Shown: piece after piece, positions 20,246-59,089 of the stretch | How positions within the stretch are numbered: position 1 is the stretch's first letter | Layout of the letters: each line of letters opens with the position of its first letter | NCBI RefSeq assembly: GCF_026162645.1 | Contig: NZ_JAOTBE010000001.1 | Span: forward strand, 124,001-188,000 | Direction: 5' to 3' | DNA: 64,000 nt | Source of the DNA: Paracoccus rhizosphaerae | GTDB lineage: Bacteria; Pseudomonadota; Alphaproteobacteria; Rhodobacterales; Rhodobacteraceae | Program-made: the position numbers and the translations under genes | Notes under the pieces: generated by a model | Seen by the model: only the letters and a program-made list of their open reading frames with translations | Told to the model about the DNA's origin: nothing | Database searches by the model: none

Positions 20246-20329
20246 CCGGACCGGCAGTTTTTGTCCGGAGGCGCCGGGGGCTGTCTGCCCCCGGACCCCC
20301 GGGGATACTTCAAGACCAAAGCAGGAGCT
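20246..20329 (+). repeat. Post-stop hairpin repeat, copy behind the MFS gene
   Basis: CCGGAC/GTCCGG (20246-20251 and 20263-20268, enclosing a T5 run) is followed by an 8-base perfect stem CCGGGGGC/GCCCCCGG (20274-20281 and 20287-20294), then a C-run, GGGATACTT and GACCAAAGCAGG. The same module appears in mirror image at 20455-20513 behind nadE. It could act as a terminator or a REP-like element. Confidence 0.8.
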
Positions 20330-27200: not shown

Positions 27201-29693
27201 ATGTCACATGCGCTGCCGATCGACGATGTCCTGCCTGCCCTTCGCGACGCCGTCGCCCGTCACGGGCGGGCGGTGCTGGTCGCGCCGCCGGGCGCGGGCA
27301 AGACGACGCGGGTGCCGCTGGCGCTGATGGAGCAGATCGACGGCCGGATCGTTATGCTCGAGCCGCGGCGCCTGGCCGCGCGCGCCGCCGCCGAGCGGTT
27401 GGCCGAGAGCCTGGGCGAAGCCGTGGGCGGGCGCGTCGGCTATCGGATGCGGGGCGAGTCGGTGCGCGGATCGCGAATCGAGGTGGTGACCGAGGGCATC
27501 CTCACGCGGATGATCCAGTCCGATCCCGCGCTGGCGGGCGTCGGCTGCGTGATCTTCGACGAGTTCCACGAGCGCAGCCTGAACGCCGACCTGGGCCTTG
27601 CGCTGGTCTGGGAGGCGCGTGGGGCGCTGCGCGAGGATCTGGCCGTCGTGGTGATGTCGGCGACGCTGGATGCGGGGCCGGTGGCAGCCCTTCTGGACGA
27701 TGCGCCCGTAGTAGTGTCGGAAGGGCGGGCTTTTCCGGTCGAGACGCGATGGCTGGAGCGTCCGATGCCCCCGGGTCTACGGCTGGCCGAGGAGGCCACG
27801 CGGCTGATCCTGCGGGCCGAGGGGGAAACGCGCGGCCTGGGCGGCACGATCCTGGCGTTCCTGCCGGGCGAGGGAGAGATTCGCCGGATGGCGGCTGCCT
27901 TGGGCGCATCCGGCTGCGAGGCGCTGCCGCTGTTCGGCGCGCTGCCGGCGGCGGCCCAGAGGGCGGCGCTGGCCCCGCCGGGACAGGTGCGGCGGATCGT
28001 CCTGGCGACGGCCATCGCCGAGACCTCGCTGACCATCCCCAAGGTGCGGGTCGTGGTCGATGCGGGCCGGGCGCGCCGGGCACGTTTCGATGCGGGCAGC
28101 GGCATGTCGCGACTGGTGACCGAGCGCGTCAGCCGCGCCGAGGCTGACCAGCGCCGTGGCCGCGCCGGGCGGGTCGCGCCGGGGATCTGCTATCGCATGT
28201 GGGCGCGGGCCGAGGAGGGGGCGCTGCCGGACTTCGCTCCGCCGGAAATCGCCGTGGCCGACCTCTCGGGCCTTGCACTGGAGCTGGCGGCCTGGGGGGC
28301 GGCGCCGGACGATCTGGCCTTCCTGACGCCGCCGCCCGAAGCGGGGATGGCCGAGGCGCGGGCCTTGCTGGCATCGCTCGAGGCGTTGGACCGCGACGGC
28401 CGGATCACCGACCACGGTCGGGCGATGGCGCGCCTGCCGCTGCATCCGCGGCTGGCGCACATGCTTGTTCGTGCAGGGCCGCAGGCGGCCGAACTGGCGG
28501 CGCTACTGTCGGAGCGTGACCCGTTGCGCGGCATCGGCGTGGATCTTCACCCGAGGCTGGAGGCGATCCGCGATCCGCGCGGGGCCTTCGCCCGGATCGG
28601 CCAGGAGCCGAACCGGGCGGCGGTGGAGCGCATCCGCAGCGAGGTCAAGCGCCTTGGCCGGGTGATTGCGTCCCGCGACGGCGGGGGGGACGAGGTCCCC
28701 CCCGCACCCCCCCTGCGGCGCCCCGAGCCCGCGGCCGAGGCGCGGCTGTCGGCTGGAGCGATGGCCTCACTGGCCTATCCGGACCGCATCGGGCTGCGGC
28801 GCCCTGGCAGTGATGCGCGGTTCGTCCTGTCCGGTGGCAAGGGTGCCGTCATCGACAATGACGATGCGCTGGCCGGCCAACGGCTGATCGTCGCGCTGGA
28901 CCTGGACGGCGATCAGCGTGAGGCCAGGATCAGGCTGGCCGCGCCCCTGGACGAGGCGGACTTGCGGGCGATGCATGGCGACCGCATCGCGTTAGTCGAG
29001 CTTTGCGAGTGGTCCCGCCGAGAGGGTCGCGTGCTGGCGCGCGTGCAGGAGAGGCTCGGGGCGCTGGTCCTGTCGGAGCGGCCCTGGTCCGACGTTCCGC
29101 CGACGGCGATTGCCGAGGCCGCGCTGCAGGGGTTGCGGCAGGACGGGCTGCGTTGGAGCGCTGCTGCGGCAAGGCTGCGGGCGCGGATCGCGTTGCTGCA
29201 CGCCACGGGCGCTGAGGTGGCGCCGGTGGACGATGCCAGCCTGCTGGCGGATGGCGATTGGCTGCTGCCATGGCTGGTCCGCGCAAGGACGTTGCAGGAC
29301 CTGCGGGCGCTGGACCTGTCAGAGCCGTTGAAGGCGCGGCTTGGCTGGGACGGCCAGCAGCGGCTGGATCGGGAGGTGCCGGCCCATTTCGAGACCCCGC
29401 TGGGGCGGCGGGTGGCCATCGACTATGACGGCGACGAGCCGTCGATCGAGCTGCGCCTGCAGGAACTGTTCGGTGTGACGCGGCATCCGGTCGTGGGTGG
29501 CAGGCCGCTGCGCATCACGCTGCTGTCGCCGGGGCAGCGCCCCGTGCAGGTGACGATGGATCTTCCCGGCTTCTGGGCAAGTTCTTATGCCGATGTCAGG
29601 AAGGACATGCGCGGGCGGTACCCCCGCCATCCCTGGCCCGAGGATCCCACGGCCGCCGATCCGACGCTGCGCGCCAAGCCGCGCGGTACCTGA
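27201..29693 (+). CDS. hrpB: ATP-dependent helicase HrpB
   Basis: An 830-residue DEAH-type RNA helicase-like protein. Motif I APPGAGKTTRVPLAL, motif II DEFHERS (a DEFH variant normal for HrpB), motif III MSATLD and motif VI RRGRAGR are present, followed by the HA2 region and the HrpB C-terminal domain ending GRYPRHPWPEDP. Its cellular role is poorly defined. The ATG at 27201 lies in a divergent arrangement with ycjX. Codons about 494-508 (GGGDEVPPAPPLRR) are encoded by a perfect 10-base stem hairpin that resembles the post-stop repeats of this window, apparently an in-frame insertion in the linker before SAGAMASLAYPDRIGLRR. Confidence 0.95.
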   Translation: MSHALPIDDVLPALRDAVARHGRAVLVAPPGAGKTTRVPLALMEQIDGRIVMLEPRRLAARAAAERLAESLGEAVGGRVGYRMRGESVRGSRIEVVTEGILTRMIQSDPALAGVGCVIFDEFHERSLNADLGLALVWEARGALREDLAVVVMSATLDAGPVAALLDDAPVVVSEGRAFPVETRWLERPMPPGLRLAEEATRLILRAEGETRGLGGTILAFLPGEGEIRRMAAALGASGCEALPLFGALPAAAQRAALAPPGQVRRIVLATAIAETSLTIPKVRVVVDAGRARRARFDAGSGMSRLVTERVSRAEADQRRGRAGRVAPGICYRMWARAEEGALPDFAPPEIAVADLSGLALELAAWGAAPDDLAFLTPPPEAGMAEARALLASLEALDRDGRITDHGRAMARLPLHPRLAHMLVRAGPQAAELAALLSERDPLRGIGVDLHPRLEAIRDPRGAFARIGQEPNRAAVERIRSEVKRLGRVIASRDGGGDEVPPAPPLRRPEPAAEARLSAGAMASLAYPDRIGLRRPGSDARFVLSGGKGAVIDNDDALAGQRLIVALDLDGDQREARIRLAAPLDEADLRAMHGDRIALVELCEWSRREGRVLARVQERLGALVLSERPWSDVPPTAIAEAALQGLRQDGLRWSAAAARLRARIALLHATGAEVAPVDDASLLADGDWLLPWLVRARTLQDLRALDLSEPLKARLGWDGQQRLDREVPAHFETPLGRRVAIDYDGDEPSIELRLQELFGVTRHPVVGGRPLRITLLSPGQRPVQVTMDLPGFWASSYADVRKDMRGRYPRHPWPEDPTAADPTLRAKPRGT
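28681..28716 (+). repeat. Hairpin-repeat copy inside hrpB
   Basis: GCGGGGGGGA (28681-28690) pairs perfectly with TCCCCCCCGC (28696-28705) around a 5-base loop, then ACCCCCC follows. The minus-strand copy at 57723-57778 has the same order: G-run, short loop, CCCCCCGCACCCCCC. The frame through this copy is open. Confidence 0.6.
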
Positions 29694-57722: not shown

Positions 57723-57778
57723 GCTTCTTCTTTGCGGCAATACCTCGGGGGGTGCGGGGGGCTGGCCCCCTGCCCGTG
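57723..57778 (-). repeat. Post-stop hairpin repeat behind the short-chain fatty acid transporter gene
   Basis: Read on the minus strand directly after the transporter stop: GGGGGCCAGCCCCC hairpin (plus 57757-57770), then CGCACCCCCCGAGGTATTGC and CAAAGAAG. Orientation relative to the gene is the same as for the nadE and MFS copies. It also separates the convergent rnr gene. Confidence 0.75.
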
Positions 57779-59089
57779 TCAGGCCAGATACAGCACGCCG
57801 CCGACCACGGCGCCCACGACTACCAGGTTGATGACGCAGAATCCCATGATGTCGCGGGCCTGCAACCCGGCGATGCCCAGCATCGGCAGCGCCCAGAAGG
57901 GCTGCAGCAGGTTCGTCCAGGCATCGCCCCAGGCCACCGCCATCGCGACGCGCGGCAGGTCAGCGCCAAGCGCCTGCGCGGCAGGCAGCATCACCGGCGC
58001 CTGAACCGCCCATTGCCCGCCCCCGGAGGGTACGAAGATATTGACGATCCCGGCGGCGATGAAGCTCCAGAAGGGCAGGGTCTGCGCGGTCGAGATCGAC
58101 ACGAACCACTCCGACAGGCTGGCGGCCAAGCCGCTCTGGACCATGATCGCCATGATGCCGGCATAGAACGGGAACTGGATGACGATACCCGCGCCGCCAC
58201 GCACCGCCCCGTCCAGCGCCGCCAGCAGGCTGCGTGGCGTGCCGTGGCAAACGATGCCCAGGAACAGGAACAGGAAATTCACGACGTTCAGGTTCAGCGC
58301 CCCGCCACCCGCGAAATGCAGAAGCAGCCAAGCAAGTCCCGGAATGCCGATCAGGTACATCAGCAGGGGGCTGGTCTCCAGCCACTCGGCGGGGGTCGGG
58401 GAGGCGCTGCGTGGCGCGGGCGCCGGGTCGCGCAGTTGTTCGGGATCGACCAGCACCTGCTCCCGCTCCAGCGGCAGCATCAGGCGGTTGACCAGCGGGA
58501 CGATGACGAACAAAAGCGCGACGATCAGCAGGTTCCACCAAGCAAAGATCGTCTGGCCGGTGGGCACCACGCCGATCTGGTCTTCGGTGAAGTGCCCCGG
58601 CGTCGCGATGACCAGCGGGATCGAGCCCGAGATCCCGCCATGCCAGATCACGAAGCCGGAATAGGCGGACGCGACCAGCAGGCGATAGTCGACGCGGACC
58701 TGCCGCGCGATCTCCTTGGCGAAGATCGCGCCCACCACCAGCCCGAAGCCCCAGTTGATCCAGCTGGCCGCCAGCGACACGACGCTGACCAGCACGATTG
58801 CGCCGCCGCGGCTGCGTGCCAAGCCCGCCAGCCGCGCCAGGACCCGGCGCACGGGGGGCGAGGATGCCAGGATAAAGCCGGTCACCAGAACCAGCAGCAT
58901 CTGCATCGAGAATGACAGAAGCTCCCAGAAGCCGTCGCCCCACATCCGCACCAGCGCCACCGGGTCGGTGCCCTGGGTCAACATTGCGGCCGCGGCGGCC
59001 ACCAGCGTCAGCACGATGACGAAGATGAACGCATCGGGCAGCCAGCGTTCCATCAGCCGCGTCGCGGGCCGTGACAGGATTCTCAGCAT
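57779..59089 (-). CDS. Short-chain fatty acid transporter (AtoE-like)
   Basis: A 436-residue membrane protein with about ten or eleven helices of the AtoE/short-chain fatty acid permease class. LSFSMQMLLVLVTGFILASSPPVRR, SLAASWINWGFGLVVGAIFAKEIARQV, YSGFVIWHGGISGSIPLVIATPGH and FVPSGGGQWAVQAPVMLPAAQALG are typical. In E. coli AtoE brings in acetoacetate or butyrate-type acids. GGAGGAAGAAG before the ATG is a clear ribosome site. The hairpin repeat lies directly after its stop. Nearby methylsuccinyl-CoA dehydrogenase and acyl-CoA enzymes are consistent with use of such acids. Confidence 0.92.
   Translation of the reverse strand: MLRILSRPATRLMERWLPDAFIFVIVLTLVAAAAAMLTQGTDPVALVRMWGDGFWELLSFSMQMLLVLVTGFILASSPPVRRVLARLAGLARSRGGAIVLVSVVSLAASWINWGFGLVVGAIFAKEIARQVRVDYRLLVASAYSGFVIWHGGISGSIPLVIATPGHFTEDQIGVVPTGQTIFAWWNLLIVALLFVIVPLVNRLMLPLEREQVLVDPEQLRDPAPAPRSASPTPAEWLETSPLLMYLIGIPGLAWLLLHFAGGGALNLNVVNFLFLFLGIVCHGTPRSLLAALDGAVRGGAGIVIQFPFYAGIMAIMVQSGLAASLSEWFVSISTAQTLPFWSFIAAGIVNIFVPSGGGQWAVQAPVMLPAAQALGADLPRVAMAVAWGDAWTNLLQPFWALPMLGIAGLQARDIMGFCVINLVVVGAVVGGVLYLA

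Follow-up and report, generated by a model that had tools for sequence, protein, structure and literature searches.

An in-frame copy of a dispersed Paracoccus hairpin repeat in the helicase gene hrpB

Rickettsia palindromic elements (RPEs) are dispersed palindromic repeats, many copies of which lie in frame in protein genes, and a review that describes them regards events of this kind as conceivable elsewhere (PMC10969869). In-frame palindromic repeats as such are already known from Rickettsia, and by analogy the RPEs would be the closest precedent for the hrpB insert described here. Like them, the Paracoccus repeat is dispersed (88 of 101 genomes) and palindromic, with an in-frame copy in hrpB; it differs in being shorter, about 48-70 bp as opposed to about 150 bp, and in that hrpB alone holds it in frame (0 of 89 further copies examined), whereas RPEs are in frame in many unrelated genes. 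REP elements with their RAYT transposases are short, G+C-rich hairpins that occur dozens of times in a genome, at the ends of genes. The Paracoccus repeat resembles them as a short palindrome of many copies at gene ends, but one of its copies is coding, and a search for the RAYT marker Y1_Tnp (PF01797), positive in 5 of 14 control genomes, gave no match in the genome studied here.

Other systems place inverted repeats within genes in different ways. Intragenic copies of bacterial MITEs can form in-frame fusions with their host genes, as the same review relates (PMC10969869). MITEs are marked by terminal inverted repeats, a target duplication and a parent transposon. The junctions of the Paracoccus insert, judged by eye, are not sharp. 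A study of Coxiella reportedly found intragenic MITE copies and in-frame host-gene fusions. In the mitochondria of Nematomorpha, inverted repeats of up to 284 bp are kept inside protein-coding genes (PMC6649704); those palindromes encode conserved protein regions, whereas the Paracoccus element is a short dispersed repeat in a linker. We found no description of the Paracoccus repeat or of the hrpB insert in the open-licence PMC literature, and what is new here is a gene-end repeat of another genus, in one gene, probably from one old insertion, that is still spelled as a repeat.

The hairpin in hrpB and the protein it encodes

The window, a stretch of 64,000 nucleotides from the 4.06-Mb genome of Paracoccus rhizosphaerae, contains the complete helicase gene hrpB (Table 1), whose product also matches Pfam HrpB_C, other Pfam domains and E. 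coli HrpB (6EUD, E = 1.2e-159). By HrpB, the closest named relative of the genome is Paracoccus beibuensis at 87% identity. The original prediction, made from the letters of the window, had described a perfect ten-base-pair hairpin within this coding sequence, and the hairpin is real; its stem, however, has 11 bp, with GCGGGGGGGAC paired to GTCCCCCCCGC around the loop GAG, and is followed by one A and seven C. The frame stays open across it, as was claimed, and the hairpin region encodes GGGDEVPPAPP in the frame of hrpB. The hairpin stands as the core of the repeat, but the repeat itself is larger: its conserved 5′ block, TTGCGTCCCGCGACGGC, lies mostly outside the predicted span of 28681-28716.

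Table 1. Features of the window discussed in the text
Feature	Coordinates	Strand	Basis
hrpB, DEAH-box ATP-dependent RNA helicase	27201..29693	+	NCBIfam TIGR01970, E = 5.5e-262, above cut-off; start ATG at 27201, stop codon ending at 29693
Paracoccus gene-end repeat, recognisable part of the copy in hrpB frame	28666..28713	+	covariance model R1
5′ conserved block of the repeat, TTGCGTCCCGCGACGGC	28666..28682	+	common to non-hrpB copies
5′ stem arm	28681..28691	+	sequence pairing
3′ stem arm	28695..28705	+	sequence pairing
ACCCCCCC after the stem	28706..28713	+	A-C run (mostly ACCCCCC) after the stem, common in the family
Weak relative with GCCGGGGG, CTGTCTG and CCCCCGG	20258..20316	+	R1, E = 0.0056
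Weak relative between two apparent convergent gene ends	57732..57797	-	R1, E = 0.008

Recognition of this copy rests on covariance model R1, built from 20 copies of this genome, none of them from hrpB, which matched the hrpB copy at window positions 28665-28728 with E = 1.9e-5. The A/T-rich 3′ part of the family, here called the tail, is not recognisable in the window's own hrpB copy. A pattern for the hairpin layout occurs at two sites in the window (five overlapping matches), and not one of 100 dinucleotide shuffles produced any. Single-copy RNA folding was tried as a criterion and set aside as indecisive, since z ranged from -2.74 to +0.73 among six copies, the upper value belonging to a copy of another species; the hrpB copy, at -1.17, folds no better than its shuffles.

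In the protein (residues numbered from codon 27198), alignment with E. coli HrpB skips query residues 441-514, and an AlphaFold2 model of moderate quality (mean pLDDT 70.9, pTM 0.47, 23 sequences) leaves residues 492-518 without secondary structure between helices 473-491 and 519-526, with pLDDT near 48 over residues 491-510. If this predicted disordered loop is real, it would explain how HrpB tolerates the insert. Four loci of other species (L101, L256, L259, L263) have longer linkers of unrelated sequence at the same place, so the loop of HrpB tolerates changes of length. Loci L035 and L091 are 96% identical yet differ by 15 residues at the insert site, and the full insert thus seems dispensable. 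Might the segment in the window, then, be an ordinary Gly/Pro-rich linker that resembles the repeat by chance, as the four unrelated linkers could suggest? That is hardly credible given the match to a covariance model at the DNA level, the result of the layout shuffles and the third-position conservation described below.

A genus-wide repeat of gene ends

Exact CCCCCNCACCCCC sites number ten in the genome, and six of them, that of hrpB included, have TTGCGTCCCGCG upstream of the stem; as a counter of the family this pattern was rejected as an undercount, against 39 R1 matches at E <= 0.1 (training copies included). When the block was searched for with up to three mismatches, 29 sites matched, of which some twenty were judged on visual inspection to be clear copies; the reversed pattern matched seven. 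Many copies run on into the tail (e.g., GAGGGTATTTGGGCAAAGAAGAAG), which brings the whole element to about 70 nt. Across the genus, R1 has matches at E <= 0.001 in 88 of 101 Paracoccus genomes, with a per-genome maximum of at least 50 where 50 candidates were scored per genome, and its best listed matches include hrpB copies of other species (for instance those of G010, G100, G024, G047, G072, G052 and G003). Among genomes spread over the bacterial family, 58 of 149 have a match, as do 56 of the 147 outside the genus; the listed matches outside the genus are weaker (best 1.9e-6 vs 3.4e-11). Seven loci searched against Rfam gave no match at the gathering score. The first ten bases of the block, GCGTCCCGCG, are near-invariant in 32 hrpB copies and in 82 of 89 non-hrpB copies, these 82 having been picked for carrying the block with at most two substitutions.

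The family also has weak relatives in the window itself. The original prediction had held the hrpB hairpin to mirror a copy at 57723-57778; a site of the same layout does lie there (57748-57770, minus strand, the second of the two pattern sites), but it belongs to a weak relative that is not the closest, since closer relatives with the block TTGCGTCCCGCGACGGC exist elsewhere in the genome. By eye, a stop codon stands on either side of this copy, which as a 3′-end element may serve both of the apparently convergent genes. The other relative (20258-20316), with CTGTCTG as its loop and GATACTTCAAGACCAAAGCAGG as its tail, lies closely downstream of a TGA.

For the position of copies outside hrpB we used 89 of them, 29 from this genome (30 of the 39 own matches were retrieved) and 60 from other species, drawn from the best listed R1 matches, together with 356 control positions; codon usage learned from hrpB genes served to call gene ends. 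Of the 89 copies, 68 began no more than 120 nt downstream of a gene's 3′ end, vs 10 of the 356 controls, and 51 vs 5 began within 12 nt of it. On the far side, 47 of the 89 have a convergent gene end, and 34 combine both features. The 29 own copies alone gave 18 within 120 nt and 11 within 12 nt. Copies often start right at the stop codon (offset 0 or -1), and those at gene ends may supply or overlap it. An identity as intrinsic terminators was considered and rejected, as the stem is typically followed by GGACCCCCCGAGGATATTT without an adjoining T run (by eye).

A copy was counted as in frame where codon usage was coding-like on both sides and one frame stayed open. None of the 89 passed, whereas all 33 hrpB inserts did, as did the window's own hrpB copy, which makes hrpB the exception among the copies examined. 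The repeat belongs to a genus-wide family found mainly between genes, and it follows that such a repeat contributed to the reading frame; the suggestion that an intergenic repeat contributes protein sequence here is thereby supported.

Distribution and descent of the hrpB insert

HrpB is present in 99 of the 101 Paracoccus genomes (G034 and G041 have no match, and G001 has pieces away from the insert site only). We gathered 100 hrpB loci, aligned 98 and built a tree without the insert columns, by a quick search in which SH-aLRT was the sole measure of support, leaving out L146 and L147 (frame breaks or stops) as well as L149 and L150 (fragments). The insert was scored by DNA pattern, with L039, L141 and L148 corrected by eye (L148 as present) and L091, a remnant, unscored. 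On this basis it is present in 34 of 95 hrpB genes and absent from 61, in each case between flanks that can be aligned, with the end of an R-rich helix ahead of the site and LAYPDRI behind it, in keeping with its predicted place between conserved parts of HrpB. Distances from an upstream column to PDRI are bimodal: 47-56 residues where the insert is present (one 64, one 70) and mostly 33-39 where it is absent (one 30, one 48). In most species it adds about 13-22 residues, up to about 36, and in many the tail is also in frame (e.g., VASRDGGGSSAPRTPRGYLREEE in L017). Named carriers include P. beibuensis, P. nototheniae, P. acridae, P. benzoatiresistens, P. marinaquae, P. haematequi, P. salsus, P. 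saliphilus, P. fontiphilus, P. aerius, P. siganidrum, P. gahaiensis, P. tibetensis and P. bogoriensis, while P. denitrificans, P. chinensis, P. sediminilitoris, P. amoyensis and P. caeni are without it; these records overlap partly with the main genome set. Locus L038 (also L311, P. tibetensis) has two tandem hairpins, both in frame. In genome G087 hrpB is split over two contigs, L148 (G087:C229) and L149 (G087:C95), the first piece ending within the insert, as might be expected at a repeat.

All 34 insert rows fall into one clade of 48 rows (SH-aLRT 100), the rest of which are 13 insert-free genes and the remnant L091, and none of the 48 rows outside it has the insert. The tree requires at least 7 changes of insert state, against a mean of 28 and a minimum of 22 when states are shuffled. 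Seven changes would fit one gain and six losses, a history that parsimony alone cannot tell from several gains at one site; the insert-free genes of the clade have nearly the length of the outgroup, as could also be expected had the insert been gained in parallel or hrpB been replaced. The check put forward with the original prediction, that an alignment of Paracoccus HrpB would show the insert to be absent or variable between conserved flanks, thus came out in its favour, with the correction that the insert is old and not strain-specific. Among HrpB genes of other genera, the same residues, the finding that would have refuted the prediction, were absent from 28 of 28 (the best 28 of 138 other-genus genomes with a match), and the insert was likewise absent from other-genus records among 80 named loci.

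Could the repeat have originated within hrpB and dispersed from it? Many of its best-scoring copies are in genomes of the insert-bearing clade, yet such an origin is very improbable, as the other-genus HrpB genes examined have no insert while weaker matches occur in 56 of 147 genomes outside Paracoccus, and as the insert-free genomes G075, G018 and G082 have at least 50, 44 and 41 matches, respectively.

Kinship among the copies bears on whether the insert was inherited or renewed. We compared each hrpB insert with copies sampled from its own genome (22 in this genome, G000, and 1-6 elsewhere, the best-scoring matches), leaving L038 (two hairpins) and L148 (cut by a contig end) out of this and of the loop and spacing comparisons. 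In 20 of 20 species the insert is closer to the hrpB insert of another species than to any copy sampled from its own genome; when all 82 sampled copies are pooled for the comparison, an hrpB insert of another species is closer in 18, tied in one (L086) and farther in one (L089, where a copy of another genome is closer than any hrpB insert). The loop CGCTTCG, present in 46 of 82 non-hrpB copies (4 of 22 in G000 alone), occurs in 0 of 32 hrpB copies. On the hrpB tree, loop types as grouped by eye need a minimum of 12 changes (mean 18.4 and minimum 14 with shuffled types), more turnover of the hairpin than plain inheritance would lead one to expect. A hot spot, at which other copies re-insert or convert the gene and so account for the conservation of its nucleotides, would fit this turnover, the patchy presence, the case of L089 and that of G100, whose single sampled copy is 2 edits from its own hrpB insert; it is nonetheless unlikely, because all 20 nearest-neighbour comparisons favour the hrpB of other species, the commonest sampled loop never appears in hrpB, and the distribution is bound to one clade.

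We therefore favour, with a probability of roughly 0.87, the reading that the hrpB insert is a copy of the dispersed Paracoccus hairpin repeat that entered once, in the ancestor of one clade, and was inherited vertically and lost about six times. It would have entered in a frame free of stops, at a point that in HrpB follows a helical domain and precedes the next conserved part, and the insert is presumably translated. One stretch of DNA in hrpB thus seems to serve at once as coding sequence and as repeat.

Frame, nucleotide spelling and a possible second role

The reading frame has left its mark on the insert. Of 32 hrpB copies, 25 have a recognised tail, and in these the distance from block to tail takes the values 40, 43, 46 and 49, which differ by whole codons, whereas elsewhere the spacing runs from 42 to 48 through all classes (70 of 82 non-hrpB copies, 48 of these at 46). 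The nucleotide spelling shows an excess of conservation as well: over the first seven codons of the insert, 32 genes have a pairwise third-position identity of 0.912, above every one of 699 comparison windows of the gene (mean 0.638, maximum 0.842). Codon positions 1 and 2 of the insert are not unusual, with 200 of the 699 windows within 0.03, and those 200 have a third-position mean of 0.662 and a maximum of 0.828. With L038, L148 and L091 included the value is 0.867 (0 of 688 windows as high), and in the 20 genes outside a subclade of 12 species it is 0.919 (0 of 701); within that subclade taken by itself the effect is weak, 26 of 709 windows reaching at least the same value. By a five-codon measure of synonymous codon use, the block ranks sixth of 246.

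The MAFFT alignment of hrpB inserts (L038 left out) was too uneven in the stem, and stems were sought copy by copy. All 33 hrpB copies searched have a stem of 7 bp or more, G-T pairs allowed, L148 left out and no shuffled control applied; L039 has an interrupted G run, and its stem lies in another register. Inspected by eye, copies differ in the base pair at the foot of the stem, which may be G-C or C-G, L016 adds a neighbouring T-A pair, and at least six copies (L014, L020, L027, L028, L035 and L084) have a mismatch there. In L015 and L092 the arms reach a perfect 21 and 19 bp by eye, through an exact complement of the 5′ block (a scripted window gave 15 and 13 bp). Template switching within palindromes can maintain stems without selection on them, according to one study (PMC8794818), and these two long palindromes look as such switching inside a palindrome would make them, an origin that we infer from their sequence.

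It is possible, if tentatively so, and compatible with the single-entry reading, that the coding copy persists because, in addition to its coding role, it still acts at the level of nucleic acid, be it as a hairpin or as a binding site in the DNA or mRNA of hrpB. The third-position identities, which top all windows in the main comparison, in the one with three genes put back and in the one restricted to the 20 genes outside the subclade, and the stems found in every copy point in this direction. The weak effect in the 12-species subclade and the sixth rank by the five-codon measure point away from it, as do template switching, which could hold the stems without selection, the folding of the hrpB copy no better than shuffles and the lack of Rfam matches at gathering scores; at least six losses and in-frame shortening further argue that the insert is dispensable. 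More doubtful is a specific dual use, in which the hairpin and the GCGTCCCGCG block would be under selection as a signal in hrpB, possibly as an mRNA hairpin acted on by the encoded helicase. Under the single-entry reading, nucleotide selection, hairpin-templated mutation or both may have kept the hairpin spelling.

The single entry and vertical inheritance favoured here would mean that, outside Rickettsia as well, a palindromic repeat usual between genes can become established in frame in a conserved helicase and last there, while its identity as a repeat stays evident in dozens of species. Since related genomes are at hand in number, some with the insert and others lacking it, both the tolerance of a protein for an in-frame repeat and a retained nucleic-acid role become testable.
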